Source: Zopfochytrium polystomum (Eukaryota > Chytridiomycota > Chytridiomycetes > Chytridiales > Chytridiaceae). From it: a DNA stretch of 64,000 nt. The notes beneath the pieces were generated by a model. That model did not search any database. It was not told the DNA's origin and worked only from the letters and a program-made list of their open reading frames with translations. A program made the translations under genes and the position numbers. Of the stretch, positions 6,701 to 46,177 are shown one piece after another. The stretch is taken from the NCBI GenBank assembly GCA_025765615.1, contig JAIVFJ010000063.1, positions 62,001 through 126,000 on the forward strand. Reading direction: 5' to 3'. The first letter of the stretch is position 1. Every line of letters begins with the position of its first letter.

Positions 6701-7188
6701 ATGATCAAGCGCGTCGTTTGGCAAGACCCCGCCGCCATCGCAGAGAAGACGACGGCGACGGCGACGGCGAAGCAAGACGAGAAGGCCATCCGCGTCAGTT
6801 GGATTGGTGGCTCCATCGTGATCTTGCAAAAAGGTGAGTGAGTGGCCCCCGCCCGGACGCCGCTGTGGAGGGCGGAAGAGCCTGAACTGAGTGATTGAGT
6901 GGATGGGTGGGTGGTAGCCGAATTGGGGGGTCCAGCCGGGGCGTGCTGAGTCAGTTATGGGATAGAGCGGACTGGCGGCGTTCGCCATCGCAAGTGTGGC
7001 GTTCTGGTCGTCACGGTGACCAACGGATGAAGCAACGAGCACGGAAGGCGCCACCGAGAGGGGCACACCTCGCTTTCTTTGTCTTCTTACCAACTCTTTC
7101 ACAAGACTTGGCCGCGCCGCGTGCCGCTTCCGAGGCAGGTAGGAGCAGCCCCGTTGCTTCTCTCATACCCGCCCTCTCTCCCGCCGCA

Positions 7189-7227
<39 letters not shown>

Positions 7228-10200
7228 GAGAAGCAAGGCCACAGTCCGAGCTTTCGGCGCAGTGTAGCCCGCGCCTATTCCATTCCTCGACGCAGGTAGC
7301 TGTGAAGCCACAACCGATCACGTCATGAACATTCAGCTGCTGACGCTCCCTCTCTCCGTCACTGTCCTCCCTGTAACGCCAAGTATTTCCCCAGATTCTC
7401 GCAAAAGTCCTCGCATGGCAAGCAGGAGTCGACCAGTGTTGCAACGGCAACGTTGGCGATGGTTCGCGAGTGTGTCGAGGCAACCGAAAGCAAGATGTCG
7501 CTCTTTTTGTTCGTCCATCCCCGCGTCCTCGGCCTCCCCGGCGGCCGTGAAATCATTTGCATGAAGGATGAGCCGGGCATCTGCGTCAAGGACATTCTGA
7601 AAAGTGACGACGGCTTTTACGAGCTCACCCTGCAACAGCCCGACGTCTACGTGCACGTCAAGATTCAGCAGGAGGGGCAAGAAGATGTGAACCGCATTCT
7701 CCCCGTCGTCTGGAGCGAGATGCTTTCGAATATCCCTGAATACCTCAATATGGGTAAGCTCCTACACACTTAGTCCCTGGGCAAAGCTAAGGCGGATGCA
7801 ATCGTCAGGTGATCCAATAAACAATACATCGAGCGGCAGCAACGTTGGTTGTTTCGGACAAGCTTCTCAATCTGGAGCAGAGTGCGTGGGAAGACTGGTA
7901 TCAATCGTCATTCACAGCGAGGGCAAAGCTGACAAACAAATCAGGATGAACTTCTTGACCGGCCCAAATGGCAGTTTCGATCTCGGGGCAGACGGGGCAG
8001 ACTGTTGAAGTCGCCGTACACGAAAGTCTGGACTTACGTTGACGAAGTATCCGGTGGCCAGTTCCCCAGAGACAGCCGTGGTGTTGATTTTCATTTGACT
8101 TTGACTTTGGACAAGAACGATGGGACTGCCAACATTTATCCCACGGAGCCAGCCGAAAATTAGCGGATCCACCCTCCGACCGAAAGAACTGGTACTATTT
8201 GGTTGCCAATTGGGAGTCGGTGGAAGAAAACTTCACCGCCACCTCTGACAAGCTGACCAATCTCGGCACGGCATCGCATTTGGCATTTATCAACAACTTT
8301 GTGGATTTCGTCAAATCAGCAAAGGACATCGCAGCCAGTGTGCCCTTCGTCGGACTCGCGTTCTCTTGCTTAAATTTCATCTGCCATCGCATTAAAAGCT
8401 ATGTCGACGCTGAAGAGACCGCAAAAGGTTTATTAATGGTATGCAAGGCGCACCAAACTTTCTAAAACTTGCCGTACAAACTCCCCAGATCCTCTAAACC
8501 TTAATTATTTTTAGCGATGTGATGTACTGCAAGGTATTATCGAGAACAAGTTTTCGGCATACTTTCGGCCTGATAGCCACCTCGTGGTGGACGAACAGCA
8601 AGTCATAGCATTCTATTTCAAACTGACCAGCAGCGCTGTTCAGGCGTTGCATAGATGTGAAAGGGCCTTGGAAGAGAGGAAGAATGCCAATAAGATCACA
8701 AAATTTGTAAGCATGGTCGGTAGTCTGTTTGCGTTCACAGTCTGACCACTTCTCCGCATATCCTTCAAAGCTTCTTTCCAAAGGCGCATCTCAACTCAGG
8801 GGCGCCGAAGTCGAAATCGAGTTCTATGCAAATGCGTTAGACCGCGCCGATCCATCCAACCTTGCCTTTGACATAAGCAGGACGCTGGCTGTGTTGCCCC
8901 ACGACGAAGCGCGACGATTTTGGCAGCTGAACAAATTTCGGGCCGTGGTACAAAAAGAAGTTTTCCAAGAACGGCTGTTTGGTCACTTTGACCACTTCAA
9001 AAGCCCCGAGAGGAAGAATGTAGTCTGCAGAGAGCCGACAGTCCCGGAGGAAGTCCAAAAGCAGGTCGTGAATTCTATCAATCTGAACGACGATCAATTC
9101 GTTGGAGTGGACGAGTTCAGCGCGTGGCTGGGAACGGAGTCTATAATTGAAAAGATGAAAGAGAAAATTAAAACTTTGGAAGCAACTCCAGCCGTTGGGG
9201 CAGACGGGGGAGGAAACAAGACATTTAGTCAACAGTCTGACGAGTACGAGCTCTTAAGGGAACTGTTTCGTCCCGTGGATTTCGTCGAGGAACGGCGCAC
9301 CCTACTGGGCCAGCAGTTGAACGTGGCTTGGAGAAACACCGCGACGGTTCTCCGGCGTTGTCCGCGATGTAGAGTTTCGGCTTGTTCTTTGTTTCTTACT
9401 TACGTCCTCTCTGACCTGTTCCATTGCAGACGGAATTGCGATTTTGGAGGCGGAGCCTGGGTTCGGGAAGAGCTCGTTGTGTGCAAAGCTTGTGACGAAG
9501 AAGTCCTTGCACTATTTCTTCAAATACGACGAAAGAGACCGGTCCGATATGCAGACGGTTCTGGGCACCCTCTTGTTTCAACTTTTTCGGATCTGCGAAG
9601 TACCGGACGCTGTGTGGAGAGATGACACAACATTGAATGACTTATTGGACGCGTATGCCTACACCCAGAACATATCCGCTCAAGGCAATCTTCAATCGTG
9701 CTTCTCTCTTGTCCGCCACTTAGTCGAGGAAAAATTGAAAAACAAGTTGAGTTACGAGACCGAAGTTGTCGATATGCTAGTTTTGGACGGGTTGGATGAG
9801 TGTCCCGAAGAGATGCAGATAAACGTGTTGACTTTTGTCGATTTATGCCACAAAGCCATGAACGAGTTGAAAATGCACATGCCCATCATTGTGGCGTCTC
9901 GTCCGCTGCCGCCACCTTTAATTAGCACAATCGCGGTGGAGAGCTACACAAGATTTAACCTGTCCTTCTTGCCTTCCCACAGTTCGAAATTTTCGGACAG
10001 CAGCTATAAGAGTGCTGGCGTCGCCAATGCGGACAAATTTCGTGAGGAAGTTGTTCCAGAACACGAAAAATGGTGTTGTGCTGTGACGGAAGCCATCCGG
10101 GAGGAGGTCAAGGAGAACTTGCAGTTTTACGTCCGCTTTTCGTTTCCCGAGGTTGACCATGTCATGACCAACCACCTTGTAAAGCTCTGCTCCGGCAACA

Positions 10201-13200
10201 TCCTCCGCCTTAAGCTCCTGATCGCACTCGTTCGAGACGAAGCCCAAAGCATTGGCAACATTGATGTGGTTATCAGAACGATGCTGGCGGACGACGTGGA
10301 GGATATTGGCAACCTTTACTTGAGATTGTTCAAGAAATCGATAAACTACATTCTCGGGGAGTCAAAAGACAACGCGAAGAGGAAAACTACGTTCGGTTTC
10401 TGTATCAGTCTTACGCTCGCAATGTTTGAACCGATAAACGCGGACTCGCTGTACAAACTAGTGGAAAAGCACATGCAGCCCAAGAAGCAGGAGCTTGCGA
10501 GCGCTGAACAAGCGGGAATTCCCATGCAGAGTGAGGAGCAGGAGCTCGCGAGCGCCGTGACTAGTTTCGACTCCGAAAAAAAGTCTCAACTGAAAGTACA
10601 GCTGAACTGCGACCTGTCTTTGGCAGCCACGCGACTGTTGTTGCGCATGAACAGCCGTGGCGGCATTATTCCGGGCCACAAGTCGCTACGAGACCTAGTA
10701 TCCAAAGACGATATTTCCAAAGCGATAGCAGACAATTTGCAAGTGAAGGAGGCAAAGATATTCCTATATAAGAAGTGCTGCGAGGCAATCGAAGAGTATA
10801 CCGCAAACTCCAACCCAGCCAATGATAAAAATAAGGCAGCCTTTCCTTTGGCATTTTGCAAGTACGCTCTGTTGAACGTGCACAAGCACTTTTGGGATGT
10901 TCAATCCACCAAGACTGACGAAAACCTGGAAGAGTACTCAAAATCATGGATGAATGTGAAGTGGCTGAAAGTCCTGGCGAAGAACGGATTAGACAAGGGC
11001 GAGAAGGAGCAACCCAAAAACACACCGAAAATAGTGAAAACCCAAAACAGGGCACGCCAAATGCGATACCAAAAGAATATGAATATCGCAGCCGAAGCAG
11101 TGCAAACCGTCTTCTCCAGTACAAAAGAAAACCAAGAGGCCTTCAAGCACAAGGAAGAAGTCTTGAAATTGCTCCGTTGTATTCATTCCGCAACTGTCGA
11201 CGTCCCAACGATCCTGGACGCAAAGAATTACGCAAGTCCAGATGGTGATGATGCCAATTGGAATATTTTCTGGAATGGACCCTCTCTGGACATATCGGTC
11301 CCTGGAGTCTTCACGGTGCACGAGCTCGAGGAGAACGGGAGTCCCTGGCTGCTCGCTGAATTTCGTGAATCGAAGCAAACTCTGTTCATCACAGTCAACG
11401 AGTACTCAAATGCACTAAGAACGTTCACGATGAGAGAAATGTCTGACCTCTTGCCTGGTCTGCTCAACAAAGAAGTTGCTTCCTTCACCGTGGAAGAAAA
11501 CTCTTCGAAACTTGTCACATGTGGCTCCTATCCAATACGATTGCATTTGGTCGCAGTGACTGTCATCGTAACTCCGACCACGGAGACGACGCCGACGACG
11601 TCGTCGTCTGCTCCGCTTGAGCATCAAAACCACTCTCAGCAGCAGGAGCAGCAGCAGCACCGTCCTCGTTCTCCTAATCCGGCTCCCAGGTCGCCGTTAA
11701 CCTCCCCCTCTCAGGTCCCATTTTTCCCCGCGGCCGTCGCACCCGAGGCCCCGTCGAAAAAAGAGAAAAAGATTTTGATACTGCTGGACGCGTCCAATTT
11801 TAAAGTGGTGCAGCATTTCCTTTCGCCCAAGTCGGTGGGAAACGACGATGGAGTCGTCTACGTGCAAACGGAGAGCGGATTCTTTAGAATGGATGCCAGC
11901 CTGAAAGCTGTTCCCATCCCACCTCTCGCAGCGCAGTACCCATACAAAGCAAAAGTTATTAAACAAAAACTGCGATGCATTTTGCAAAGGTCTCTTCCCG
12001 GCAAGGTAAATTCCCATGACTTTCTATCTCTCCACCAAACCACGACTTGCGTTTCACGTACGACATTTAGGAGTGTTCCACGACAAATGGAGGCACAACA
12101 ACAACGGGCAGGACAGCCCCAACCGGCTCCACGACGACCACGGCCACAACAACAGAGCCAGGCGGCGGGACGGCGACCACCATAACCATCAAAATCGCTC
12201 ATTCTTTCTCGAGGGCCGCTGACTGGTGTTCGCTAAAGCCAAAGTCGGAACCGTCAAGCACTGCGAGTGTGTCCCCACCAGAGAGGATGCCGGCGCAATC
12301 AACCTCAGCGAATGCCTCAGGACCAAACGGTCCTCAGAAGAGGGTGGTTTATTACTGCGAGTCCCCCGCTCATACTCCCAATACTGTTCAATTTTTGACG
12401 GCCAAAGGGCGATCTCGGCGCATTAAATTCCACGTTGAACGTGGAGAATTGTACAACCTTTCTGAGGGTCTCGTAGACTGGTCCCTGCCGCCGACAAATG
12501 CGCCTAAAGCCCAACCGTCGATCGCGACGAACGAACACGATGCTGAGGATTCCCCCGTGTACGATGGCAAATGGTTTGTGAAGAGGTTCAACAATCGGCA
12601 GGGCGGAAACTGCCTTCAAATTTATCTTGGTGACCGGTTCACGTACGTGCGCAACGATTTGGGCACAAACTTGAAAATTTCAGAGGAAATCAGGGCCGCC
12701 AGGACTTACAGGGTCGAGGGAATTTTAGGAGCACAGCGGGCCATAGTTGGCGACAAAGTACTCTTCAGTCGGGTACTCCCTTCCAAAGCTAACGACACCA
12801 GCTCTGAAGCTACGGAGAACCAAGCTATTGTTGAAAGCGACGAGAGCGAAGCGGAGATCTGGGTCTTCGACGCCAGCTCTGACAAAGAACCGCGGTCGCT
12901 GGCGACCGCCGTGTGGTGGACGGTCGTGGGACAAACGGATTTGCTCTTGCTGACCAGCACCTGGGTCTTTCGAAAACTCAACATGATGACGGACCTGGAA
13001 GACGGGCTTTCGGGCCCGAAGATGGACGCCGTTTTCGCAATACCTCCCACCCTGGTTCCGCACTCGCCGGACTCTCTGGAGGCATCTGCGGGACGGAGTG
13101 CCACGGCAAATGGCACCACTGTAACAGTGACGTGGGTGGTGGGGTCCCTTCAAGTAAAACTTGAAATTGACCCTGAGGAACAGATACGCAACCAGCCGTG

Positions 13201-13228
13201 CGATACACTGACTTCCGCGGCCCACTGA
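6701..13228 (+). CDS. EF-hand/NACHT NLR-like protein, copy A (frame break in exon 5)
   Basis: Nine exons, fixed by comparison with copies B and C: 6701-6833, 7231-7295, 7408-7753, 7809-7897, 7945-8438, 8515-8706, 8771-9368, 9430-12005, 12071-13228. All intron phases match the paralogues. Exon order: short N-terminal module (VSWIGG block); conserved LFVHPR...VVWSEMLSNIPEYL region; helical region with SVPFVGLAFSCLNFIC; an EF-hand loop NLNDDQFVGVDE at 9080-9115; NACHT Walker A GFGKSS at about 9465 and Walker B LVLDGLDEC at about 9780; a long helical/novel C-terminal part. Exon 5 is not a multiple of three: one base is missing around 8130-8163 relative to B and C, which also exposes a TAG at 8161. 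Exon 3 uses an acceptor (CAAAAG) shifted downstream. Either a recent pseudogene or an assembly indel. Function beyond an NLR-like NTPase switch is unknown. Confidence 0.8.
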
Positions 13229-14096: not shown

Positions 14097-17000
14097 TCAG
14101 TTGCTCACTGAAGTAACTACATCGCAACGGCCTGGCGCACCGATTCTTATTTGAACTTGGAGGTCGCCCACCATCCACGACAACTGCACACACGAGTCCA
14201 ATTTCTGGGCGCTCAGTCCTGGAGTTTCGTCCAGACGGTCCAAAGGGTACGGAACCAGGGAGGGAGGGATCGCGAAAACGGGAACCGGTTCCGGGCGCGA
14301 AGTCCAGTCCACGGCCTTCTTCAAGTCAAGTTTCCCGAGGATCCCGGAGCTGCTCAGCGTCCACAACGTTTCACCCAGGATGTTCCAGAACGACGCCTGC
14401 GCCACCATCTGCGGCGCGGACGTTTCCAAGCTCCCGTTGACGCCGACTGCCCAGACCTGAGCTTCCCTTTCTTCGGCTTCGCTGGTACCTTGGGTTTCAG
14501 TCGTTTCAGAGGTCCCGCTGTCCTGTTCGCCTCGGCCGCTGGTGTCGCTAGTTTTACGAGATGGTATCAGACTGAAGAATAGCTTGTCGCCAAATATTTT
14601 CGTCTGCGCTCCTATCATTCCGTCCACCGGCCAAGTCGTTTCGTTGTCCCCCCTATGAGTAAATTTGAACTTCAAAATGTTCCAACGAACGACGCTCGTA
14701 TGTGGATCCAGTTTGTTGGTAACGTAGGAGAGCCGGTTTTGATAAGTAATTCGGATGCGATTTCCGGACTTGAACCTCTTTACGAAACAATCTTCGCCTC
14801 CGATCCGCCAGGAAGTCTCCGAACCGTTTTCGTCTGCGATGGTGGACGCTGCGATTTCTGACGTCTGAATCTGCCGCTGCGGCGACTCTGTAGACGACCT
14901 TTCGTCTTCGGGCGCCGTTGTTGGACTCTCATCGCCGTTTTCGTAGGTGAAAGTCTCAGAAAGTTGATAGGTTTCTCCTCGTTGAACGTGGAATTTAATG
15001 TGCTGCAATCGCCCCTTGGCGGTATCAAATTGGGCGTCCGTGGAGGGGTGAGCAGGCGACTTGCAGTAATAAACTAGAAGCCCCTCCTGCTCAGTTTGTG
15101 TATCATTACTGTCACGCGCATTTGCAGAAGTTGACGGCACCGAGCTCGGCTCCTCCCGTGAGGAGGTGTTCGAATTCACATCAGCGATTTCGATGGCAAA
15201 CTAAAAAAGGTTTAAACGTGAACACGCAGGTTCTGGGGAAGCACAAAGGCGGAGGAAATTTACCGAGTCGGACGCGGGAGAACGCGGTGCCGGCAAAGCG
15301 CATCGCCCACCATCAATCAGATGGCTGTCTACGATGTGTGAGGAGCCAGGCAGACGAGGAGGGCAAGAAACAGCTTTCAGACTGGCATCCATCTTGACCC
15401 ATCCATCATCAATTTGCACGTAGACGACGCCATTGACGTTTTCCACTGACTTGGGCGAAAAGAAATGCTGTACCAGTTTGAGATTGAAGGCGTCCAACAA
15501 CATCAAAATTTCTTCTGTTGGCAATTCTCCTTTCGATGGGGTAGCGGTTACCGTCACTGCGACCAAATACAAAGGCGTTGGATAGGAGCCACATCTAAGG
15601 AGGTTCGCAGATTTTTCTTTCACGTCGAAGGTAGCATCTTCGCCTTTGGGCGGATCAGACCCTACTTTTTCCGAACGTTTGTCTTTCGCAGCTTCGTGAC
15701 CTTTGGATGATGATTTTTCTTTTTCGCTGGTCGAAGCATATTTGCTTTTGAGGATGTCACTTGCTAGAAGAGACATTTCCCTCTTTGTGAATGTCCGAAG
15801 CTCGTTTGAGTACCAGTTGACCGTAATGAGCAGAGTTTCCTTCAAACGGTTGAATTTAGCGAGAAGCCAGGGACTCCCATTCTCCTTGATGCGGCTCAAC
15901 GTGAAGTCGCCAGGGACCGGAAAATCTAAAGAAGGGCCGTCCCAGAAATTTTTCCAACTAGTGTTACTTTGCCCTGGATTTGTGTAGTTCTTCGCATCGA
16001 GAATGGTTGGGACGTCTACGGTTGCGGAATAGATGCACCGAAGCAATTTCAGAACCTCTTCCTTGTGCTCGAAGGCCTTTTGGCTCTCTTCTGTGCTGGA
16101 GAAGACAACTTGAATTGCTTCAGCCGCGATGTTCATGTTTTTTTGGTATCGCATTTGACGCGCCCTATTTTGGGTCTCCGCTATTTTTTTAGGTTGCGCC
16201 TTCTGCTCCTCCGACAACCCGTTTTTTGCAAGAAGTTTCAGCCATTTGACGTTCATCCACGCGCCCGCGCACTTGGCCATATCTATTCTCTGCGTTTTTT
16301 CCTCCTTGGATTGAGCAACTTCCTCTTGCTTTCCACCGAGCTTGGATTGAACATCCCAAAAGTGCTTGTGCACGTTCAGCAGAGCGTAATTGTGAACGTC
16401 ATTTCCAAAAATATTTTTCTTCTCGCTGGGAGCACCGCTGTTTTGGATGGGTTTCGGCGGATACTCTCGGATCGCCTCGCAGCATTTTTCATACAGAAAT
16501 ATCTTTGCCTGCTCGACGTGCAGGTCGTCTGCGATAGCTTTGGAAATGTCGTCTTTCGAGACCAGGTCGCGTAGCGATTTGTGGCCAGGAATGATGTCGC
16601 CGCGGCTGTTCATGCGCAGCAAAAGTCGCGTGGCCGCCAGAGATAGGTCGCATTTTAGCTGTGATTCCAGTGGAGACACTCTTTTCGGTTTGGCTTCCTT
16701 TTTGGAGTCGGTTTGGGCGCTCCCTTGAGGCTCTCTCATCTGGGTGAGACCGGTCTCGGCGCCCGCGGGTCCCGCTTTCTTCCCGATCGATTCCTGCCAA
16801 TACAGTTCCACCAGTTTGTACAGCGAGTCGGCCTTTATCGGTTCAAACATTGCGAGCGTAAGACTGATACAGAACCCGAACACGATTCTCCTCATCTGGT
16901 TGTTTTTCGACTCCTCCAGAATGTAGTTTAGAGACTTCTTGAACAGTTTCAAGTAAAGGCTCCCGATATCTTCCACGTCGTCCGACAGCATTGACATTAT

Positions 17001-20000
17001 AACCACATCAATGTTGCCAATGCGTCGGAAATCGTCCCGAACGAGGGCGATCAGGAGCTTGAGGCGGAGAATGTTACCGTAACAGAGCTTTACAAGGTGG
17101 TTGGTCATCACAGAGTCGACCTTGGGAAGCGAAAAGCGAACGTAAAACTGCAAGTTCTCCTTGACCTCCTCTCGGATAGCCTCCGTCACAGCAGAACACC
17201 ACTTGTCGTGTTCTGATATACCTTGCGCACGAGATTTGTCTGCGTCTACGCCAGCACTCTCTTGGCGAGGTTTCGACAGAGTGTGGGAAGGCTGGAAGGA
17301 CATGTTGAATCTTGTATAGGCTTCCGACGTAATTTTGCTGATCAAAGATGACGGCAGTGGCCGAGACGCCACAATGATCGGAATATACAACTCCAAATCC
17401 TCCATGGCCTTGTGACACGAATCGACAAAAGCCATAACGTTTATCTGCAAGTCCTCGGGACACTCGTCCAAACCATCCAAAACTAGAAGGTCCACAACTT
17501 CAGTCTCGTACTTCAACCTGCTTTGCAATTTTTACTTCACCAAATGGCGGACGACAGAGAAGCACGATTCAAGATTGCCTCTTCCGGATATGTTCTGGGT
17601 GTAGGCGTAGGAGTTCAAAACGTCGTCCAAGGTTGTGTCACTTTGGCGCGCTAGGTCCGGCACTTCACAGATCTGAAAAAGTTGAAACAAGAGGGTGCCC
17701 AGAACTGTTTGCATATCCAAGCGGTCTCTTTCGTCGTATCTGAAGAAAAAATGCAAGGACTTCTTCGTCACGAGCTTTGCGCATAACGAGCTCTTCCCGA
17801 ACCCAGCCTCGGCCTCCAAGATCGCAATGCCGTCTGTAAATGAAGACGGTCAGAGGGAGTCCAAGGAAAAGAAAAGAAAAAAAAATAATATGTAAATATA
17901 AAGAGTAAGACCCGAAACTCAACTTCGCGGACAACGCCTGAGAACCGTCGCGGTGTTTCGCCAGGCCACATTCAACTGCTGGCCCAGAAGGATTCGCCGT
18001 TCCTCGACGAAATCCACAGGACGAAACAACTCCCTCAGGAGCTCATACTCGTCAGTCTTCTGACTGCTTCCAACCGTGCTTTTTTGTTTCATTTCCTGAA
18101 TCTTCTTGTCCATCTTCTCAATTATAGACCGAGTTCCGCCGAGCCACGCGCTGAACTCGTCCACTCCGATCCAGTCATCGCCGTTTATATTGATGGTCTT
18201 CACGAGCTCCTCTTGGTCTGTTTCCTCGACCAACTTGGCACTCTCGGCACTCTTTGAATTCTTTGAATGGTAATAAAAGTGACCAAACAGCCGTTCTTGG
18301 AACACTTTCGTTTGCACAACGGCCCGAAATTTGTTCAGTCGCCAAAACTGTCGGGCTTCCTCGTAGGGCAACACAGCCAGCGTGCTGCTAATGTCGAAGG
18401 CAAGGTTGGATGGATCGGCACGGTCTAACGCACTCGCGTAGTACTCAATCTCCTCTTCGGCCCCCTTGAATTGAGATGCGCCTTTAGAAAGAACCTTGAA
18501 AGAAAATATTGAGAGTGGGCCAGACTGTGAGCGCAAAAGGCAAGCCGACCAAACTTACAACTACAGCGACTTTATTAGCAGCCTTCCTTGCAGCCAAAGC
18601 TCTTTCGCATTTGTGCAACGCCTCAACAGCGTTACGGGTCAGATCGGAATAAAACACAATGACTTGCTGTTCGTCCACCACGAGGTGGCTGTCGGGCCGA
18701 AAATACGCCGCAAACTTGTTCTGTATTATACCTTGTAGTAGTTCACATTTCTGTAAAAAAAAGACAGCGTCAGAAGATCTGGGGAGTTTCGACGGCGAGT
18801 TTTGAGAAAGTTCGCTGCGCCTTGCATACCCTTTTGAGACCTTTCGCGGCCTCTTCAGTCTCCACGTAGATTTTAATAAGATGGCAGATATAGTTGATGC
18901 AGGAGAATGCGAGCCCGATCACTGGCACGCTGGAGACAATGTTGGTGGCCGTTTCGATGTAATTCACAAAGTTGGAGACTAATGGATAATGCGACTTTGC
19001 GCCCAGCTTCATGACCTTGTCTGAGGCAGTGGTGAATTGTTCTTCCACCGTCTCCCACTTTGCAAACAGACAGTACCCGCTGTTTATGGAGAGGTTGATC
19101 CGCGAATTTTCATCGTGTTCTCTCGGGTATATCTTGAAAGTAGCCCCCTCCCTCTCACAAGTCAGATAAAAATCAACGCCTCGGTCATCTCTGTCGAGCT
19201 GGCCGCCAGACATTTCGTCCACGTAAGACCAGACTATAGTATATGGCGACTTCAACAGCCTATCCCGTGATCGAAAATACCAATTAGGCCGGTCGACTAG
19301 TGCTTCCTGATTTGTTGGTGAGCCTTGTGCTCGCTGTGAACCAAGTTTAATACCAATCTTCCCTTGCACTCTGCGCCGGCGTCGGAAGGCAGTCTGAAGC
19401 AACCAACATCGCTCTCGATCGGTTGAGGGTCCACGGCTTCGCCTAATGATTGCCTTTGCCTTCAGCTTTGCTCGGACTATTAGCACGCGGGGGCGCTTAC
19501 CCAATTTGAGGTACTCGGGGATGTTTGACAACATTTCGTTCCAGAGAACAGGGAGAACGACATCTTCGTCTTCGACACCCGCACCCACGAACTTGACGTG
19601 TATGTAGACGTCCGGCGGGTGCAGGGTGAGCACGAAATTACCTTGTTCAATTTTCCCAATGTCCTTGACGCAAGTCTGCCGCTCATCCTTTTTGCAAATC
19701 AACTCATCGCCGTGGAGGCCGCGCGGACGGACAAACAAACAGTGTGCCAGCTTTCTTTCCTGTTCTACGGCCGCCTCGCGAATACGATCCAGCGTTGCCG
19801 TTGCAGCCTTGTTCTGCTCCAGCTTGCCATGCGAGGCCTTGAGGATATGCTGAGGTTGGGAAGACGAGCGAGCAAAGAGAGAGTGAGGGTGCAACGTGAC
19901 ATGATTGGGTGCACATCAGCTACCTGAAAACGGCGCTGGCTCCTGCCCTGCACCGAAGTGTTGTCGTGTGTTGGCCTTCCTGCTCCGGAAGAGGGGTTCG

Positions 20001-20460
20001 TTAGGCAACAACACATGGGGGTTGTTGGGCAAAAGGGGGGGTCCGCTTCGTAAATACGTATTAGTCACATACCATTCTCGGAACCTTTGCGCTCGAAGGG
20101 AATTTCTTGTGGGTTGCGGTGGAAAGGGAAAGACAAAAAGCCGACAATACATTGGTTACGGTCACGTGCTGGGTTGTCTATCGGCGCCGCGCGGTGCCGC
20201 TTCGGTCGCGTCTGGCGCGCTCCGCCCCCACCAGGCCCCAACTCAAACACCTCCCCACTCATCGACTCGCTCACTCACTCACTCACTCACTCGGCTCCAC
20301 ACTCACCTCCTTCAGTGATCGTCGTCGCGCCGCCGATCCACCTGACAACGACGGTGGCCTCATTCTCCTCCTTCTTTTTGGCGGCTGCGGCTTCGCCCGC
20401 GGGGTCGGTCCACTGCACGGAGGGGGCTGCCGCCTGAGAGCGCCTCGACAAAAAAGACAT
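14097..20460 (-). CDS. EF-hand/NACHT NLR-like protein, copy B (one in-frame TAA)
   Basis: Nine exons: 20460-20307, 19979-19924, 19849-19501, 19442-19354, 19306-18830, 18750-18559, 18494-17924, 17833-15264, 15200-14097, about 1853 codons. Lengths of exons 4 (89 nt) and 6 (192 nt) equal those in copy A. N-terminal module with VVVRWIGG; LFVRPRGLHGDELICKK; YFRPDSHLVVDEQQV helical block; EF-hand-like loop NINGDDWIGVDE near 18190-18155 (position 6 is Asp, not Gly); NACHT Walker A GFGKSS near 17790, Walker B LVLDGLDEC near 17475. The sole lesion is a TAA at 17534-17532 between Walker A and B, where copy A has GAA and copy C has AAA. The last exon carries the conserved YYCKSPAH...HIKFHVQRGETYQLSE block. 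Start chosen at the ATG before FLSRRS; an in-frame ATG lies 12 bp upstream. Confidence 0.8.
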
Positions 20461-21022: not shown

Positions 21023-21025
<3 letters not shown>

Positions 21026-24244: not shown

Positions 24245-25638
24245 AAGGCAAAGGCAATCGCCACCGCCGTCGACGGCTCCTCCTCCTCCTCCTCCCTCTC
24301 GCCGGCAGCTGCTGCACCAGCAAATAATCCACCACCACCAACAGCGCCGCCGCAACAGCAACAAAATCAACAATCCGCCACCAACCGCGCCGCAGCCGCC
24401 GCTCAGCACAACCACAACCACAACCACAACCACAACCACCTCCACCAACAACAACAACTACAAGAACAGCAGCATCGCTACAACGACATTGACGAGGACG
24501 AAATTATCACGGCCGTCGAATTCCTGGCGAACCAGGAGGAACTCGAGCGAGAGGCCGCCGAGGTGCGTGACGAACCGGACTGAAATGGGAACCCCCGGTT
24601 TTGTCCGAGATGTCCAGCATGCATCGATCCACCCACGCACCTCACACTCACACTCACACACACTCTCTCAAACACACACACCCACCACACACACACACAC
24701 ACATGCGCGCACCCGCACTTACTCATGCTCCTCCAATCACCCACTCTACCCAAATTTCAGGCCCTCCCGCGCTCCATCGACATTTGCTCGTACGCAAAGG
24801 GCAGCATCCTCCAGCCAATCTACTCGTGCCTGACGTGCGCGCGCGCCAACCCGTCCGGCGAGGAGCCGCTCGGCATCTGCTACGCCTGCCACGTGCAATG
24901 CCACACGTCGCACGAGATCGTCGAACTGTCTTGCCGCCGCGCGTTCCGCTGCGACTGCGGGACGACGCGGATGCCGCCGATACCGTCGACGGGGTCGGCG
25001 GCCACGTCCGGCGGCGGCGCGTGCCTGCTGCAACGCGGGAAGCGCGGCGCGCCGCCCGAGCCGCGAAACGTGTACGACCCGATGCCGTTCGCCGGGCGCT
25101 TCTGCTGGTGCCGCGTGCAGTACGACCACGCCGTGGAGGCAAAGTACGCGGACGGGAAGGGCACGACCATGTACCAGTGCGTGCGGTGCGAGGACTGGTT
25201 CCACGACCGGTGCATTGCGGGGCTCCCGCCAAAGCCCGCTGCGGTCGCTGCGGCGGCGGCGGCGTCGGCTGCGAAAGGCCAAGGAGAAGACGGCTGTGGG
25301 GACGGAAAGAAGCGGAAAAAGAGCGGCGGCGATCAAGAGGGCCAACAGCAAGAGGACGAGGAGGACGACGACGACGAGGACGGGCAAGACGAAGACGAGG
25401 ACGCGTTTGACGAATTTTTTTGCTGGGGCTGCGTGGACGCGCTTCCGTTCTTGCGCGGGTACGAAGGGTCGCCGCTGTTTATATTTGGCGATGTCGATGT
25501 CGATGTCGATGTCAATGGCGACGACGCCAGCGGCGACGGGACGCGAATTGAGGAGGAGGGGGTGGATAGCCACAAGCGACGCAAAATCGACAATGACGGC
25601 GACAACCGCGGTTCGACCAGGAGCTCGGCGACGGGCAC

Positions 25639-25671
<33 letters not shown>

Positions 25672-27467: not shown

Positions 27468-27469
27468 TC

Positions 27470-27480: not shown

Positions 27481-27507
27481 CACCCTCTCCCACTACTCTC
27501 TGCCATC

Positions 27508-34111: not shown

Positions 34112-37100
34112 ATGGACCACCAGCGGAGCGTCACAATTCAGCTCGTTCCGGACGAGGACTCTCAAGTGCCCGACCAGCTATGCAGCAGCCCCAGCGGCGA
34201 CGTCCAATTCGTCCACGACGGGAATCGCTTGAAGGTCTACTGGGACGACATGATTCGCGCGCTCATGCTCGCGCCTGAGCTGCACACCACCGCCATTTAC
34301 CCCGACGCGTCTCTCACGCCGGTCAATGGCCCAAACGGCGATAGCATCAGTTTGCAAGAAGGCGGCGGCGGCCGTCCTCATTTCCGGCTGCCAAAGTTCG
34401 TTCCGTCCAAGACCCGTTTGCTCTATCTCCGCCTTCGCGACCCCGAGCCAATGGAGCAAGAAGAAGCTCGTCTTCGCATGGCTCAAGCCGTGCCAGAGCG
34501 ACCACGGCTGAACCCCGACAAAGGCTTCAAGTTCACTTCGGACGATGTGCGAATCGCCTGCCTTCTTTCCGCAGCCGCCAACAAGGACGACCCCAGAGCG
34601 TGGCTCCTTGAAAAAAGCGGACAGTGGCCGAGCAAAGTACAGTCGCGTCCGCTGTTCGTTCGAAGAGGCGATCGATCGCGCGATTCTCCTTTGACTCCGT
34701 ATCTTCTGGTCATGACACGCGCCGTGGGCGAAAGCCACTCGCAACTCCCGGGCAGTCTTGATGCTTTTGAAAAGCACGAGGAACGAACTCTTTGGGTCGC
34801 TTTCCGCGGCACCGACAACGTGGAGGACGTCATCGCGGATTTGAACTTTTTGCAAACAGGGACCCCTCTGGGCAGAGTTCACAGTGGCTTCTGGGGCAAG
34901 ATTTGCAAGCTAGCCAAGCATCTCGGTCACATAAGCAGAGAAATGCGAGAAACAAACGACAAACTACAACCGGGACGCCCACTCATGCGAGTCATCTTCA
35001 CCGGTCACAGCTCGGGAGGTGCACTCGCGCAAGTATCCTTCCTCCATGAAATCGCCAATGACGACCTCAAGGGCCAACTGAACGAGCACATTGGGGCCAT
35101 TGCATTTGGCAGCCCTTGGGTGGCGAACCAAGAGATTTCCGATGCTCTCGTTGCGAAAGGCCTGTCCGGCCGCCTCTTGACGGTGGTCAACGACGCAGAC
35201 CTTGTGCCCAGCCTGCTCGACTATGTTGAAACTGCCAAATCCGTAGCTGGAACGGTTGACCGCGTCACTTCTGACGCAGCCACCATCTGCACTACCATTC
35301 GCCGGTGTCTCGGAAATGACAGGGCTGTGCTGGCAGAAACCTTTTTCAAAGCCGTAACCTATATGACAGAAATTGTCGACTCTTTCGGAACGAAAACAAC
35401 TCCCCTACCAGCATACGCACCTTTGGGGCGCCTTTTGATTATAAAGGAAGCGGACCGTGAAAATAATATTGTTTCCAGTATGCTTTCCGATACCGAGAAG
35501 ATAAGAGAGTGGGTCGCTGAAAAGTTGAAAAACTTCGACCAGAGGGCCGAAGAGCGAGAGGTACTCTCCAGAGGCATACGCGCTCACCACTGGAAGTTGT
35601 ACTTGGACTCGGTGAGACAGTGCGCAACCCTCGGAGACTTGAACGCTGCTGAAGCGGCGTCGCAAAGCGAGTCGCAAACCGAAGAAAAGGACTTCGCACC
35701 AGAAAATATCCCCGAGGACTACCTTCTGCCCGCAATAGGCAGCTGCAAAGTGGAGGTATTGGCCAATTCTATTGGAGTAACCGTTACAGGCAAAAACCTT
35801 CATTTCCTCAATGTGGATGCCCCTGCCTTTTTTAAATGGGGCTTCACAACTCTGGAACCGACAGCATGGGAGACGCTGGAAACGCAAAGCGATCGGATAC
35901 TCCTGAAGATCAGAATTGATGGCCATCAAGCACGTGAGGACCATACTCAGCCACACTTTGAAATTTGTTTGCGCAAGTATTTCTGCGACGCTCCCAGGGG
36001 CCGATCGTACCTGGCTCGCCGTGTTGACAAGAAGAACCCTGATGAATTCGACGATTCTCGCATTGATTCGGCGGTGGACGACGATTTGCGGGCAAAGCTT
36101 TCAGCCGATTTTTTCCTGGCGGCAGTGCGGCGCCTGTTCTTTCGACTCTCTCTCGATCTTATCGTCGCTGGTGTTACCAAAGCAAATGCGATCGATCGTG
36201 TCAACCGTGTCTTGACAAATTCCCCCGCTGTGACCCCTTTCCTGGAACTGTGCGCTGACCTCCCAAAACCCCGACCACCCGAAAAGGAGTGGGTCGTCGT
36301 ATTCAAAGACGCGCTGCGCGACGCCTTGATCGCACAAGTCAAGGAGGGAGAATATGCACCTGACATTAAGGAGGACCGTAACCGTGTAATACTTTTCAGC
36401 GCGACGAATCGAGAGAATTTGACCAACGAGATTACTCCTGTCCTCGAAGCATTAGTGGAACACCTCAGCCAGCCCCGCTATTATACGTACAAATCTACTT
36501 TGAAGAATGGAGCTATAGTTCTTGCCGTTCTCTGTATCGGCGTTTTCGTTGGAGTGATGCTCACGGAAGAAATTGTAAGTGCTCCAGTTGCCGAGTTGAC
36601 TACCGTGTTCGCACCAAGCTCTGTCACGGTCAGCGGTGCTGTGGCTGGTGTGGCTGGTATCGCCAAATGGATGTCTACGTGGTCCCCAGCGACGGATGCA
36701 ATGGAGCCAGAAAGACGGTACCGCAGTCAGTTGGAGCTCTTTCTCAATAGTCTTGGCTCCAACATTGGCGTACTAGACTCCTGCCGGCAGTTGGAAAATA
36801 TGCTGTATACTCGTCTAATGAAATGCAACTTTGGAGATGTCGCGCAAGCAAACCAGCGGGCTCCAGACTGGCTTGCCGACGACGCCAAGTTAAAAACAAA
36901 GCTGGAGTGGGATCGGGAATCGCGTGAAATGTTTGAGACACCAGCAACGACGAAGAGGCCTAGTCTGAAAGGCTGCACACTTCAGGCAAAGCTCCAGGCA
37001 CTTCGCTTCCTTCGCTTGATCATGTGCGTGAGAGAAACTCGGAAGCTGATGGACCGAATTTTCGTTGCGTTTGTTGGCGAATCAGCGGTCGGCAAAAGCT

Positions 37101-37771
37101 CCCTTCTCAAGGCGCTCTTCCAGCTAAATATCACTGCGGGCTTCACTAAACAACATCGCACGCAATCTATCTCACTCTATCCTCTTCAAGGAGGAAGTCA
37201 AGCTCCAATCAGCGTTCTTGATTTTCCAGGCACAACTGACCTGAACGACAACGCATCTGCTACCTTTTATGATGCGTACGGAATTACGAGTATGAGCGTT
37301 ATCGTGGCCCCCCCAAAAGGCGGCGGCCTGAATCTTCGACAGATTGCCAGAAGGCTTCGTGGCCGTAAATTGCGCCCATCGGAGGAGGTTCGACGCGATT
37401 TTGCAGCCCAAGGATTTCTCCTGCCTGCCACCAGCAACGATGATGCCTCCAAGATCAAGTCGCCGGTGTGCGTGTTGGTGTCCCAGCTCGACACCATGAA
37501 CATCGACCCTGCAGAGGCGGAGAAAGGCATGGAAGCAATCAAGGCGGAGGTTGCGGAGTCCGCCTGTGTGAAGATCAGCCAGGTCCACTTGTATTGGAAC
37601 GACGTGGACGTGAAACAACCGCCGGATTCGAAACCGTATCTTGTGGGCCGCGGTGTCGAGTCGGTGCGACAGTTCCTTTATGAGCAGATGGAGGAACAGC
37701 TGGATATCAGTGAGTACAAAGAGGAGGTAAGGGCCCAGCTGAAACTGGAGGCTCGTCGTCCCGAACAATGA
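34112..37771 (+). CDS. Class 3 lipase - dynamin/GIMAP-like GTPase fusion protein
   Basis: Intronless ORF of 1219 aa. Residues 1-110 are unassigned. A class 3 (alpha/beta-hydrolase) lipase domain spans about 225-370: WVAFRGTDN near 230, nucleophile elbow GHSSGG near 297, and the expected Asp in VNDADLVP near 360. A middle region of about 430 aa is unrecognised and ends at a hydrophobic segment (IVLAVLCIGVFVGVML, about 800-816), with a second weakly hydrophobic stretch near 845, so membrane association is likely. A P-loop GTPase follows: G1 GESAVGKSS near 988, G3 DFPGT near 1036, and a G4-like SQLD near 1123. The order lipase-membrane-GTPase suggests GTP-controlled lipid hydrolysis or membrane action; this is inference. 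Start chosen as the first ATG; upstream sequence is clearly non-coding. Confidence 0.85.
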   Translation: MDHQRSVTIQLVPDEDSQVPDQLCSSPSGDVQFVHDGNRLKVYWDDMIRALMLAPELHTTAIYPDASLTPVNGPNGDSISLQEGGGGRPHFRLPKFVPSKTRLLYLRLRDPEPMEQEEARLRMAQAVPERPRLNPDKGFKFTSDDVRIACLLSAAANKDDPRAWLLEKSGQWPSKVQSRPLFVRRGDRSRDSPLTPYLLVMTRAVGESHSQLPGSLDAFEKHEERTLWVAFRGTDNVEDVIADLNFLQTGTPLGRVHSGFWGKICKLAKHLGHISREMRETNDKLQPGRPLMRVIFTGHSSGGALAQVSFLHEIANDDLKGQLNEHIGAIAFGSPWVANQEISDALVAKGLSGRLLTVVNDADLVPSLLDYVETAKSVAGTVDRVTSDAATICTTIRRCLGNDRAVLAETFFKAVTYMTEIVDSFGTKTTPLPAYAPLGRLLIIKEADRENNIVSSMLSDTEKIREWVAEKLKNFDQRAEEREVLSRGIRAHHWKLYLDSVRQCATLGDLNAAEAASQSESQTEEKDFAPENIPEDYLLPAIGSCKVEVLANSIGVTVTGKNLHFLNVDAPAFFKWGFTTLEPTAWETLETQSDRILLKIRIDGHQAREDHTQPHFEICLRKYFCDAPRGRSYLARRVDKKNPDEFDDSRIDSAVDDDLRAKLSADFFLAAVRRLFFRLSLDLIVAGVTKANAIDRVNRVLTNSPAVTPFLELCADLPKPRPPEKEWVVVFKDALRDALIAQVKEGEYAPDIKEDRNRVILFSATNRENLTNEITPVLEALVEHLSQPRYYTYKSTLKNGAIVLAVLCIGVFVGVMLTEEIVSAPVAELTTVFAPSSVTVSGAVAGVAGIAKWMSTWSPATDAMEPERRYRSQLELFLNSLGSNIGVLDSCRQLENMLYTRLMKCNFGDVAQANQRAPDWLADDAKLKTKLEWDRESREMFETPATTKRPSLKGCTLQAKLQALRFLRLIMCVRETRKLMDRIFVAFVGESAVGKSSLLKALFQLNITAGFTKQHRTQSISLYPLQGGSQAPISVLDFPGTTDLNDNASATFYDAYGITSMSVIVAPPKGGGLNLRQIARRLRGRKLRPSEEVRRDFAAQGFLLPATSNDDASKIKSPVCVLVSQLDTMNIDPAEAEKGMEAIKAEVAESACVKISQVHLYWNDVDVKQPPDSKPYLVGRGVESVRQFLYEQMEEQLDISEYKEEVRAQLKLEARRPEQ

Positions 37772-39983: not shown

Positions 39984-42900
39984 TTATGTCGTCACTGCCG
40001 TCGGTGCAACAATTTGAAGTTCGACGAGGAGGGACGACCGGGCTTTCCACTTGAGGATAACAGAGGAGTCAGAGTCAATTGCCTCGGCAATCAGTATTGG
40101 AGGTTCGTGCAGAGAGTTTGACGAGTACGGAATCAGGATGGGAGGGACCGCGAACACGGCATCCATTTCTGGTCCTGAAATTACGGCTCCCAGTTTTTCT
40201 GGTTCGACGCATTTGCGAAGAACCCCGTTGGTGCTCAGCATGAAGAGCAAATCCGCCGTCGTCCCCCTAACAATTGTCCACGATAAGGAGCACGCCGTCG
40301 CCAGCAAACGGAGCTCCGCCGCTTGATTTTTGACAAGGTCGACAACCCAGATCTCCGCTTCGTTCTCTGGAGGTAAAACGCTGAAGAATATTTTGTCGCG
40401 AGCCATAGCAATCGTTGTTCCCATTATTCCATTGACCTCCGGCCAAGTTGTTCCGTCGGCCTGCGGAAATTTCCTCGTCCTGCCCCAAGACGTGATTTGA
40501 ATGCAATTCCCGCGCTCAGTCTTGAGCATCTGTACACTACATGATTTTCCTTTGATCGGCGCCGCAACATCTCCATTCGTCACTTCCAATGAATCGGAAT
40601 TTGGCGAGTCAGTCTGTTCAGAAAGACTGTAGGTTTCTCCTCGTTGGACGTGGTATTGAATATGCTGAGATCGCCCTTTGGCGGTCAAAAATACTGCGGG
40701 CGAGTTCGGGTGAGCAGGGGACTGGCAGCAATAAAACAGCCTCTCCTGTTGCTCATTTTCGGTTACTGCAGGGGCAAATGTTTGTGGCTCTTCTGTGGTG
40801 GTTGATGTCTCCAAGCTATTCTCTCCCGAGGACGTATCCGGGTCCCCGTCTGCGGATGGCTGGGACTTCACATTGGTACTGAAAAGAGTGTGAGCGATTT
40901 TGATGGTAAACGCCTCAATGTTCTGCGTGAGCACAAATCCTGGTTAGTTATGAATGAAAACAAAGTCGCTGGAAGCCTACCTTGACGGAAGTGCAAGAAC
41001 TTTGCGGTTGCGAAGTGCATCGCTCTATATTGATCTCTTCGTATGGGGAACTTTTGTCGGGAGGTGGACAGGGAACAGCTTTCAGACTGGCATCCATTTT
41101 ATAAAATCCGTCATCCATTTCCAAATAGACAACCCCGTTTGCGTTCTTCACCGATCTGGGCGAAATGAAATGCTGTATCATTTTTTTGGGAGTGAATGCG
41201 TCCAGCATTATCAAAATCTCCAGTGGAGGCAAGTCTTTTGAGGACGAGGTTGCCAGCACAGTCAGTGCGACCAAGTACAATCGATTTGGATAAAAGCCAC
41301 AAATGACAAGTTTGGAGGATTTTTCTTTCACGGTGATCGAAGTATATTCACTCTTAGGCGAGCCAGTCGTGAGTGTCGAAGACTTTTTGTTTTCGGACTC
41401 TTCTTCACTTTTGAGTTCCGAAAGTTTTTCGTTCCCGCTCGAGACAGCATCTTCGCTTTTGGGTTCGAAAGATTTTTCTCTGGAGCCGAGGGAAGGATTT
41501 ACACTTCTCAGAACATAAGGCTTGAGGTCAGACATTTCCTCCGTTGTGAATGTTCTTAGTTCGTTTGTGTACGAGTTTACTGTGATGAACAGGGTTTCCT
41601 TCGAATCAAACTCAGTAAGTAGCCAGGGACACCCATTCTCCTCGAGCCGGTGCATAGAGAATGCAGCAGGCTTCAATATGTCCAGGGAAGGCCTGTTCCA
41701 GAAAATATTCCAATTTTCATCTTTATCTGGACCCGCATAGTTCTCTGCGTCGAGAATAGTCGGAACGTCGGCGGTTGCGGAATAAATACACCGAAGCAAT
41801 TTCAGGATTTCTTCCCTATGTCCGAAGGCCTCTTGGTTTTTTTTGGTGCTGGAGAAGACGATTTGCACTGCTTCTGCCGCGATATTCATGTTCTTTTGAT
41901 ATCGCGTTTGATGTGTGGCCTTCGGGGACTCTGGGAACCCGTTCTTCGCCAATTTTTTTAGCCACTCGACATTCATCCACGCCTTCGCCCACTTGCCCAT
42001 TGGGTCTATCTGCTGTTCAACCACCTTGGATTGAACTTCCCAAAAGTGCTTGTGCACATTCACCAGAGCGTACTTGTAAAAGGCCTTGATCTGCTTTAGA
42101 TTGAAGTTCGCTGTGGAAGTGGGACTCTCCGGATATTTTTGGATCGCCTCGCAGCACATCTCATAGAGAAACATCTTTGTCTCGTTTACTTGCAAATCAT
42201 CTGCGATGGCTTTGGAAATATCGTCTTTTGATACGAGGTCACGCAACGACTTGTGGCCCGGAATCATGCCGCCTCGGCTGTTTGTGCGCAGCAAAAGTCG
42301 CGTCGCTGCCAGAGACAGATCGCTTTCCAGCTGCGCAATCAGTGGAGACACTGTTTCCTGGTTGGATCCAGTATGGGCGGTTGGAGGATCTGGTTGTTTG
42401 TACAGTTTAACTAGTTTGTACAGCACGTCCGCGTCTAGGGGTTCAAAAATTGCGAGCGTAAGAGCAATGCATGAGGCGAACATGGTTTTCCGCGTCGTAT
42501 TGTCTTTCGACTCCTCCAGAATGTAGATGATCGATTTCCTGAACAGCCTCAAGTAAAGATTGCCGATATCTTCCACGTCGTCCGTCAGCATTGACCTGAT
42601 AACCACGTCATAGTTCCCGATGCGTAGATAGTCGTCCCGAACAAGTGTGATCAGTAGCTTAAGACGAAGAATGTTGCCGAAACAGAGCTTTACAAGGTGG
42701 TTGGTCATCACGCTGTCGACCTTGGGAAGCGAGAACCTCACGTAAAATTGCAAGTTCTCCTTAACCTCCTCTCGGATGGTTTCGGTCACATTGGAACACC
42801 ATTTTGCATGGTCGGGAACGACCTCCGCACGGAAGTTGTCCGCGTCAACGCCAGCACTCTCATGGCTGAATTTCGTAAATCTCGTAATGTGGGAAGGTTG

Positions 42901-45900
42901 GAACGACATATTGAATCTTGTATAGTTTTCTAACGTCATTGTGCTCATTAAACTTGACGGCAGAGGACGAGAAGCCACAATGATGGGCACATGCATCTTC
43001 AAATTGCCCATGGCTTTGTGACATAAATCGACAAACATCATGACGTTTTTCTGCATCTCTTCGGGGCACTCATCTAAACCGTCCAGAACAATAAGGTCCA
43101 CAATTTCAGTCTCGTACTTCAACCTATTTTGCAATTTTTTCTCGACTAAATAGCGGACGATAGAGAAGCACGATTCAAGATTGCCTTGAGCAGATGTGTT
43201 CTGGGTGAAGGCGTACGAGTCCAACAATTCGTTCAATGTTGTGTCACTTGTGCACACCTTGTCCGGCACTTCACAGATCTGAAAAAATTGAAACAAAAGG
43301 GTGCCCAGAACTGTCTGCATATCCAAGCGCTCTCTTTCATCGTACTTGAAGAAATAGTGCAAGGACTTCTTCGTCACAAGCATCGCGCACAACGAGCTCT
43401 TTCCGAATCCAGCCTCGGCCTCCAAAATTGCAATGCCGTCTGCAATGGGACAGGTAAGAGAGGCAACCACATTCCAATACAAAAAAACTCGAAACTCAAC
43501 ATCGCGGACAACGCCGGATGACCGTCGCGGTGTTTCGCCAGGCTACATTCAACTGCTCGCCCAGAAGTGTCCGGCGGTCCTCGACGAAACTCGCGGGACG
43601 AAATAATTTCCTTAAGGCCTCGAAGTCGTCAGCGCTCCGACTGACTTTCGCATCACTCGATTGTAGCGCTTTCACCTCTTTAATTTTCTCTCTCATTTTG
43701 TCAAAGATAGGCCGGCGTCCCAGCCACGTGCTGAATTCGTCGACTCCGATCAACCCATCGCCGTTGAAATTGATGGAACTTACGACCTGCTTTTGGGTTT
43801 CAGGCGGGACGGGGTTGCGATCGAATTCATCCGAGTCTGGGCCAGTACGTTGGGGATCGTGTGCTTTCTTCTACTTCCTCTTGAGCTCGGCTTCCGTCAG
43901 CTTGTTGAAGTGATCAAACAGCTGTTTTTGGAAAGCATCCTTTCGGACAACCGCTCGAAACCTGTTGCGGCGCCAAAATTGGCGCGCTTCGTCGTGGGGC
44001 AATACAGCGAGCGTGCTGCTAATGTCGAACGCTAGGTTGGACGGATCGGCCCGGTCCAGTGCATTCACGTAGGACTCGATTTCCTCCTTGGCGCTCTTCA
44101 GCTTAGATGCGTCTTGCGACAAACCGGCACGAATCTTTGAAGAAAACATGACGGGGCGGGTCAGATGGTGACGCGAAAGTAATGCTGGCAAAGCTTACAA
44201 TTCCAGTAAGATTATTACGTGCCTTCCTGGCAACCAAAAATTGTTCCCATGTGCGCAACGACGCGATAGCGCTGCGGGCCAGTTTTGCGTAGTTCTCTAG
44301 AACATGTTTCTCGTCCACCACGAGGTGGCTGTCGGGCCGAAAGTACGCCAAAAACTTCATCTGTATAACATTTTCCAATACCTCACATTGCTGAAAAAAT
44401 TTCAGAGGATCTGGCGAAAGTTTGGTGCTCCTTGCGTACCACTTTAAGGCTTTTTGCCGCCTCGTCATCCTCCAAGTAACTAAGGATAACACGGCACATA
44501 TAGTTGATGCTAGAGAACGCGAGCCCGACCAAGGGTACGCTACTTAGGGCGTCGGTAGCTTTTTGGATGATCATGGTGGCTGCTTCGGCGAATTCCGCCA
44601 CTTGACGCACCTTGAGGTCCGATTTCGAGACTTTCTTCGTCAGCAGATAGGCTCTGCCAAAGCGTTCATCCGCGATCTCCCAATTAGCAACGAGTTCGTC
44701 AAAGTTATCTGGTTTGAAAACACGTTTATGCGTATCTTCATCCCGTTCGTGCAGAGTTAACACGACAGGTGTGTTTCGCTTGTCACAATCCAACTCAAAA
44801 TGAACACCTTTTTGGTCGCGGCTGTACCCGCCACAATAGAGTGCATTAACGTAAGCCCAGACTGTAGAATTTTGCGATTTGAGCACTTTTTCCTGGGGAG
44901 GAATCAGCCATCCAGGACGGTCAACACGTGCATCCTGATTGTTAGGTGAGCTTTGCACCCGCTGTGAATCAATGTTGATACCAATTTTACTAAACTGTCA
45001 GAAGCTTGCCAGATGCAACTATTGTCCCTCTCGCGCGATGAAGTGTCCGCAGCTTGGTATTGCAATTGCTTTTGCTTCAGATTCGCCCGGAGCCAAGTGT
45101 TAAAGATCTTACCCAATCCAAGGTACTCTGGGAAGTTCGACAAAAACTCGCTCCAGGCAACGGGGAGAGTTGCTTCCTCGGCATCTCCCTCGCTCTTCAA
45201 AATATTGACATGCATGTACACGTCAGGCTCTTCCATCCGTAGCAAAAAGTGGTTTTCGTCCTCAATATTCTCAGGTTGGATGTCTTTGACTCGAAAGCGC
45301 TGCTCATGCTTTTTGCATATTATCTCATCCCCAAGGGGGCCTCGGGCGGGACGGACGAACAAAAGGAGCGCCAGCTTGCTTTCTTTTTTTTCGATCTTTT
45401 TTCGAATCGTATTCAGCGTAGACGTTGCGAGGCTGTTCAGATCCTGCTTGGACAATCCAGTAAAATGCTGGGGGGGGGGGGGGGGAAGGAGAGGAGAGTG
45501 AGATGAAGGGTGAGGCGAGCGCCACCGCAAGTAGCAGAATGCCGATGACGTGGTATTATTTGTGTCCACAGCTACCTGCATCACGGAAAGACGACGCAAG
45601 CTCCTTTTGGTGCAGGGTCGATTTTCTTCTCGAAAGTGAGAGCATCCCACCCAGGAGTAGTGAGGGTTAGGCGGTTAAGTATTTAACGCAATGGTGGGGA
45701 GGACGGGCGAGCCCCACCTGAATCGAATCCCTTGCGGGGGAAATCTGAAAGAAGTCGAGTATGACGTGTGATAAACGGTACAGCAGAGACAGAAAAAAGA
45801 AAGAAAAAAAGAAAGAAAAGATAAATATTAAATAGGAGGCGGCGTGCTTCGCTATTCAGTCCACTCAACCTCCCACCCCTCCCCCGCCTCGCTCGCACAT

Positions 45901-46177
45901 TCAACAGTGTCTCTCGTGCATACTTACCCGGCCCATCTTCATCATCATTATCATCAGTGATCTTCATCGAGCCGTCCCTCCAGGTGACTTGGATGGTCGC
46001 ACGGGGACCGGCGGTGCCTTCGGCGGGGAATTCGGCGGCGGCGGCGGGGGCTTCGGCGGTGGCGACGGGGGCGGCGTCGGCGACGTCGTCGACATCTTCC
46101 TCAACGTCGTCGTCGGTTGCTTTTGGCTGGAGTCTATTCCAACCGACGCCGGGGGCAGGGTGAGTCAAGCCGTTCAT
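39984..46177 (-). CDS. EF-hand/NACHT NLR-like protein, copy C (one in-frame TAG)
   Basis: Nine exons: 46177-45928, 45628-45576, 45467-45113, 45052-44982, 44934-44443, 44390-44199, 44134-43501, 43439-40981, 40922-39984, about 1814 codons, phases identical to copies A and B. This copy has the best EF-hand of the three: loop NFNGDGLIGVDE (about 43774-43739), with Asn/Asn/Asp at 1/3/5, Gly at 6, Ile at 8 and Glu at 12. NACHT Walker A GFGKSS near 43400 and Walker B IVLDGLDEC near 43085. Helical block with SVPLVGLAFSSINYMC in exon 5. The only lesion is TAG at 43873-43871, in a variable Lys-rich linker before the EF-hand. The last exon has the YCCQSPAH ... HIQYHVQRGETYSLSE block. No known family was recognised for the N- and C-terminal parts. 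Predicted role: Ca2+-modulated STAND switch (inference). Confidence 0.82.

Follow-up and report, generated by a model that had tools for sequence, protein, structure and literature searches.

A predicted Cbl-type EF-hand pair directly before the NACHT ATPase in NLR-like genes of chytrid fungi

Is a calcium-type loop encoded just upstream of a NACHT ATPase part of a genuine EF-hand, and what might such a domain do beside a switch of this kind? The question is raised by 64,000 nucleotides (nt) of Zopfochytrium polystomum DNA (C63:62001-126000, on contig JAIVFJ010000063.1; hereafter the window), in which three genes, copies A, B and C, carry an EF-hand-like loop in the exon preceding that of the Walker A motif. 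An initial annotation had proposed a calcium-gated switch, a plausible hypothesis. We find that an EF-hand pair, of Cbl type by its predicted fold, standing directly before a fungal NACHT domain is real and unusual: the two adjoin in one protein, structure prediction gives the fold, and the ligand positions are conserved.

Three homologous genes and their relatives

In all three copies, the EF-hand exon is joined to the NACHT exon across a GT-AG intron in phase 1, and the frame runs open into Walker A, while in two related genes on contig C95 of the same genome (C95a and C95b) EF-hand and NACHT lie in one open frame. The proposed union of an EF-hand with a NACHT ATPase is borne out by these single-frame genes, by relatives that keep the loop, by a profile search of the PDB and by the predicted fold. 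The features of the three copies are as follows.

6701..13228, + strand, copy A gene span, with EF-hand and NACHT exons open and exon 3 interrupted (own-genome match)
8161..8163, + strand, TAG stop in frame within exon 3 of copy A, after which A and B differ by 2 nt in length
8515..8706, + strand, copy A exon; its product is the latter half of the N-terminal helical region and runs collinear with P0001 and P0003 in alignment A5
8771..9368, + strand, copy A EF-hand exon
9080..9115, + strand, copy A EF loop NLNDDQFVGVDE, Gln at position 6
9430..12005, + strand, copy A NACHT exon (NPHP3_N, E 2.5e-13, 51.0 bits, cut-off 24.8)
9450..9473, + strand, copy A Walker A (AEPGFGKS), from sequence
12071..13228, + strand, copy A C-terminal exon; the copy C counterpart is without a Pfam match
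14097..20460, - strand, copy B gene span
15264..17833, - strand, copy B NACHT exon, interrupted
17532..17534, - strand, copy B in-frame TAA inside the NACHT exon
17790..17813, - strand, copy B Walker A (AEAGFGKS), from sequence
18084..18392, - strand, copy B predicted Cbl-type EF-hand pair (model residues 35-137 of the exon)
18156..18191, - strand, copy B EF loop NINGDDWIGVDE, Asp at position 6
39984..46177, - strand, copy C gene span
40981..43439, - strand, copy C NACHT exon, open (NPHP3_N, E 1.6e-11, 45.2 bits, cut-off 24.8)
43396..43419, - strand, copy C Walker A (AEAGFGKS), from sequence
43501..44134, - strand, copy C EF-hand exon, with an in-frame TAG
43736..43771, - strand, copy C EF loop NFNGDGLIGVDE
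43871..43873, - strand, copy C in-frame TAG, lying between its two EF-hands

Coding-strand alignment of all three copies gave common exons and upheld their placement as homologous genes, and searches of the 80.16-Mb, 761-contig assembly matched copy A to copy C at 72% identity. An exon of 192 nt in every copy is followed by an EF-hand exon of 598, 571 and 634 nt and a NACHT exon of 2576, 2570 and 2459 nt in A, B and C respectively, with common intron phases of 0 before and 0 after the 192-nt exon and 1 between the EF-hand and NACHT exons. The nine-exon plan with identical phases that had been described stands around these exons, but not in full: the 5' joins, among exons 1-3, gave frames with stops, and phase 0 at the last junction, before the C-terminal exon, depends on the choice of splice sites.

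Judged by their sequences, the proteins are fungal NLR-like STAND ATPases with a NACHT domain of the NPHP3_N family. The NACHT assignment held against Pfam, NPHP3_N exceeding its curated cut-off (24.8 bits) in copies A (51.0) and C (45.2), in C95a (70.7) and C95b (L010; 60.6), and in a protein of Physocladia obscura (P0003; 82.5); the copy B exon is split by a stop, and the piece downstream scores 13.4 bits. Window-family genes are fungal, because the contig C95 paralogue is the Zopfochytrium polystomum (Chytridiales) protein DFJ73DRAFT_587077 (P0001), with 100% identity over the 460 residues searched.

The flanking regions gave fainter matches. A TANC1-type lid and winged helix fell under cut-off in C95a (E 0.059 and 0.038), as did the winged helix in P0003 (0.021) and a beta-propeller profile in C95a (0.02), and the C-terminal exon of copy C matched no Pfam family. 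Prediction of the N-terminal helical region was of low confidence, designed bundles being its best structure matches, and a 185-residue N-terminal piece of C95a had no Pfam match. None of the HeLo, SesA, Goodbye and MLKL profiles matched at E <=1 (copy C exon 3) or E <=5 (the C95a piece), a search that distant relatives may escape; an S-V-P-x-[IV]-G stretch in the N-terminal bundle may resemble fungal HeLo-like N-termini.

This architecture appears to be confined to a minority of the many NACHT genes. The Zopfochytrium polystomum genome contains at least 150 NPHP3_N NACHT matches (150 of 231 first-look candidates were scored, all above cut-off), whereas a survey of 2014 found chytrids to have no NLRs (PMC4986451). 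An own-genome search with the Physocladia stretch (E <=1) returned 32 matches, six covering the EF part (both C95 genes, one on contig C7, and A, B and C) and 26 the NACHT start only. Among 30 other NACHT loci fetched, 16 had a findable P-loop, and one of these (L014) had a loose EF pattern upstream, SPSTDTRLTGTE, which was judged a chance occurrence; the other 15 had none. Window proteins were not among the matches in three database searches, all limited by length and by words, two of which scored only about 8,000 candidates each; the absence of further relatives from these searches proves little, since P0002, itself a query row, was missed in one.

The EF-hand loop and its predicted fold

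The 12-residue loop, followed by DEFS(A/T)WLG, was seen in A, B and C where it had been reported, as were the departures at position 6 in A (Gln) and B (Asp), copy C keeping Gly6. Relatives with the loop come from three further lineages, and all have canonical forms: C95a (DHNLDGLVHIRE) and C95b (DKNSDGFVHIRE), the C7 relative (DFNHDGFVHISE) and P0003 of Physocladia obscura (DKNRDGLIHVEE). All seven members have N at position 3, D at position 5 and E at position 12, with V or I at position 8 and D or N at position 1, while Gly6 is kept in five (C, C95a, C95b, C7 and Physocladia). Fully canonical loops occur in four of the seven, with few other domain columns invariant. Such conservation at positions 3, 5, 8 and 12 is more than chance, given an identity of only 18-34% between the EF domains of the four lineages. 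The window loops are derived, having Asn at position 1 in every copy and no Gly6 in A and B, and calcium binding was probably ancestral to the EF-hand pair. Gly6 is presumably absent from the Cbl loop too, in which case Asp6 in copy B alone would not exclude calcium.

The fold was approached through profiles and structure prediction. In a search of all PDB chain sequences with a six-member profile (alignment A2), EF-hand proteins were the first 42 of the best 60 of 79 matches (best E 6.1e-5). The AlphaFold model of the copy B exon, made from a seven-row alignment, has the expected helix-loop-helix before Walker A, in the form of two such hands with short strands, that is, a paired EF-hand; ten-residue blocks of residues 41-130 have a predicted local distance difference test score (pLDDT) of 78-90, with one block at 60, and the whole model 65.1. 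A model of a C95a fragment is also a paired helix-loop-helix. When the copy B model was searched against known structures, 37 of the top 38 matches bore the name of a Cbl-family TKB domain, and a distinct gap set these apart from the matches ranked lower. As modelled, the chytrid domain is a Cbl-type EF-hand pair, a relation absent from the initial annotation, with one degenerate hand and one calcium-type loop.

Several points weigh against this reading, together with the in-frame stops and the apo Cbl structure discussed below. Firstly, the confident Pfam EF-hand hit that had been anticipated did not appear: matches were weak, and the best score given with a cut-off was 17.8 against a gathering score of 25.4 bits (P0003), with E 0.00023 for the best fragment. 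Secondly, Cbl was absent among the matches listed in the PDB sequence searches and the Cbl_N2 profile (PF02761) reached only E 0.02-0.04, in two members, so that the Cbl link, as modelled, comes from the fold rather than from searches by sequence. Thirdly, the bare loop pattern is weak, as 200 shuffles of 40 retrieved proteins gave its loose form a mean of 0.545 times and up to 3, compared with 3 observed.

The sub-threshold profile matches and the shuffles would suit a chance resemblance in an unrelated helical linker. We nevertheless regard such a coincidence as very improbable: all three observed matches fall in the EF-NACHT family, with the loop starting 94, 100 and 95 residues before the P-loop (in P0001, P0002 and P0003), the loop recurs in divergent relatives, EF-hand proteins head the PDB sequence search, and an EF-hand pair is predicted by AlphaFold.

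Interrupted copies and an open paralogue

Each window copy has one in-frame stop that the initial annotation missed, namely a TAG accompanied by a length shift in A, a TAA in B and a TAG in C. Hence A, B and C may be pseudogenes, a three-copy family that itself does nothing and in which the EF-hand is merely left over. Candidate introns able to splice out the stops in frame were enumerated (donors GT or GC, 25-260 nt), and those inspected, 40 of 94 candidates in C, 40 of 97 in B and 20 of 44 in A, also delete sequence retained by the other copies; in B, all of those inspected, from 30 nt upwards, take out NACHT sequence. The missing window proteins in the three limited database searches point the same way. 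On the other side, there is just one stop per copy, copy-specific introns (96 nt in C, 83 or 86 nt in A) are possible, as are assembly errors, and Nei-Gojobori ratios of nonsynonymous to synonymous change (dN/dS) between copies lie below one: 0.32-0.39 for the EF-hand exon and 0.28-0.31 for the NACHT exon, with 0.22-0.53 for the exon before (exon 4) and 0.486 for exon 7 between B and C. The copies were therefore under constraint until recently, or still are. On balance, we lean towards regarding them as pseudogenes.

A variant code in which TAG is sense, raised by the TAG codons in A and C, was rejected because the stop in B is TAA and long frames in the window (1255, 1232, 954 and 864 residues) have no internal TAG.

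By comparison, C95a is open for 1545 codons through EF-hand, NACHT and C-terminus; C95b has a frame break or intron near its 3' end, and the C7 relative a frame change or intron between its EF part and NACHT. Copies A, B and C are related to this open C95a gene but are in decay, or interrupted at the least; C95a is more likely to be the working gene, because all three window copies look damaged. NLR families turn over fast, a pattern with which a single intact copy beside damaged ones would be consistent. Elsewhere in the genome, L011 (C223:74500-84400) is a decayed relative of the window family, with two TGA and one TAG in its NACHT-part match, and no EF-hand match was detected there.

The window also holds a Ty3/gypsy retrotransposon with gag and pol frames and a chromodomain at 27466-32066 (+), this first copy being the one scanned (RVT_1 1.6e-39, Chromo 3.5e-16), a second copy at 49583-54184 and the start of a third at 62394-63359, as well as a 300-nt repeat at six sites (about 22.7, 27.2, 32.1, 49.3, 54.2 and 62.1 kb) that are 98-100% alike. 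A single frame of 1232 residues at 34073-37771 (+) has the odd pairing of a class 3 lipase domain (5.8e-17) with a GTPase-like MMR_HSR1 match (1.8e-5), a frame at 24584-26185 (+) has a UBR-box zinc finger (1.5e-10), and one at 59319-60335 (-) an eIF3c N-terminal match (1.1e-7).

A possible hinge and its known counterparts

Taken as a whole, these observations are best explained, in our moderately confident view, by an NLR-like subfamily in which a Cbl-type EF-hand pair is a metal-braced hinge before the NACHT switch. The subfamily of fungal STAND ATPases, so far from two chytrid species, would have an N-terminal region and helical bundle, the EF-hand pair, NACHT (NPHP3_N), a possible winged helix, and a C-terminal region that may be the sensor. 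By analogy with Cbl, whose EF-hand sits between a four-helix bundle and an SH2 domain, the pair would most likely keep the helical part, a candidate effector, in place against NACHT, and calcium, were it bound, would stabilise or shift this hinge and thereby bias the ATP switch towards its resting or its assembled state. Calcium binding, the hinge and its effect on the switch are inferred, as is any part played in cell death or defence.

The same domain could instead be a permanent scaffold, with constitutive metal or none and no part in signalling, its conservation reflecting packing, possibly as in Cbl. This has somewhat less than an even claim on the evidence. The nearest structural relative is the Cbl EF-hand, a Cbl structure is given as apo in the text of a comparative study (PMC4196763), which counts against a sensor role, a calcium-type loop is present in just one hand of the pair, and loop position 6 is changed in A and B; set against this are the invariant ligand positions 3, 5 and 12 and the canonical loops of four of the seven members, in a domain with few other invariant columns.

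A bolder version of the hinge, which we hold to be rather unlikely, is a chytrid NLR lineage in which a Cbl-type helical bundle and EF-hand were fused to NACHT and ATPase activation is directly calcium-dependent, a fungal counterpart to plant Cbl-N NLRs. If true, it would be an NLR that reads calcium and does not merely cause calcium flux. In the usual description of NLR activation a ligand triggers nucleotide exchange and calcium comes in later, as an output; the ZAR1 resistosome is reportedly a calcium-permeable channel. An EF-hand that sits immediately upstream of the P-loop of NACHT, in two families of chytrids, would turn calcium into a candidate input.

The placement had been presented as undescribed, and no paper on an EF-hand NACHT protein was found by title among the matches listed; the domain itself does have kin, in Cbl-type pairs and the plant Cbl-N NLRs already described. 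Fungal NLR or STAND proteins with NPHP3_N (PMC4986451, PMC9815663, PMC12258605) share the NACHT domain above cut-off, an N-terminal helical region and a large repertoire, whereas "EF-hand" is absent from the main texts of these surveys and the module was detected here at six loci. The best structural match by a wide margin is the EF-hand part of the Cbl TKB domain (PF02761 Cbl_N2; PDB 3pfv, 2cbl, 6bk5), which has the same paired fold and, by the order given in the text of PMC4356231, follows a helical bundle, as the chytrid pair is predicted to do. In Cbl, however, SH2 and RING come after the EF-hand, whereas in the chytrid proteins the NACHT ATPase follows it instead, with no SH2 or RING match at E <=5 in P0001 or P0003. 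Also close are the Cbl-N-type NLRs of non-flowering plants (PMC11218826, PMC12512272), whose N-terminus has likewise been compared with that of Cbl; the main texts of both papers are without the term "EF-hand", and they describe a four-helix bundle with NB-ARC where the chytrid proteins have an EF-hand pair with NACHT. An early-diverging fungal lineage would be added to the NLRs that share a part with Cbl.
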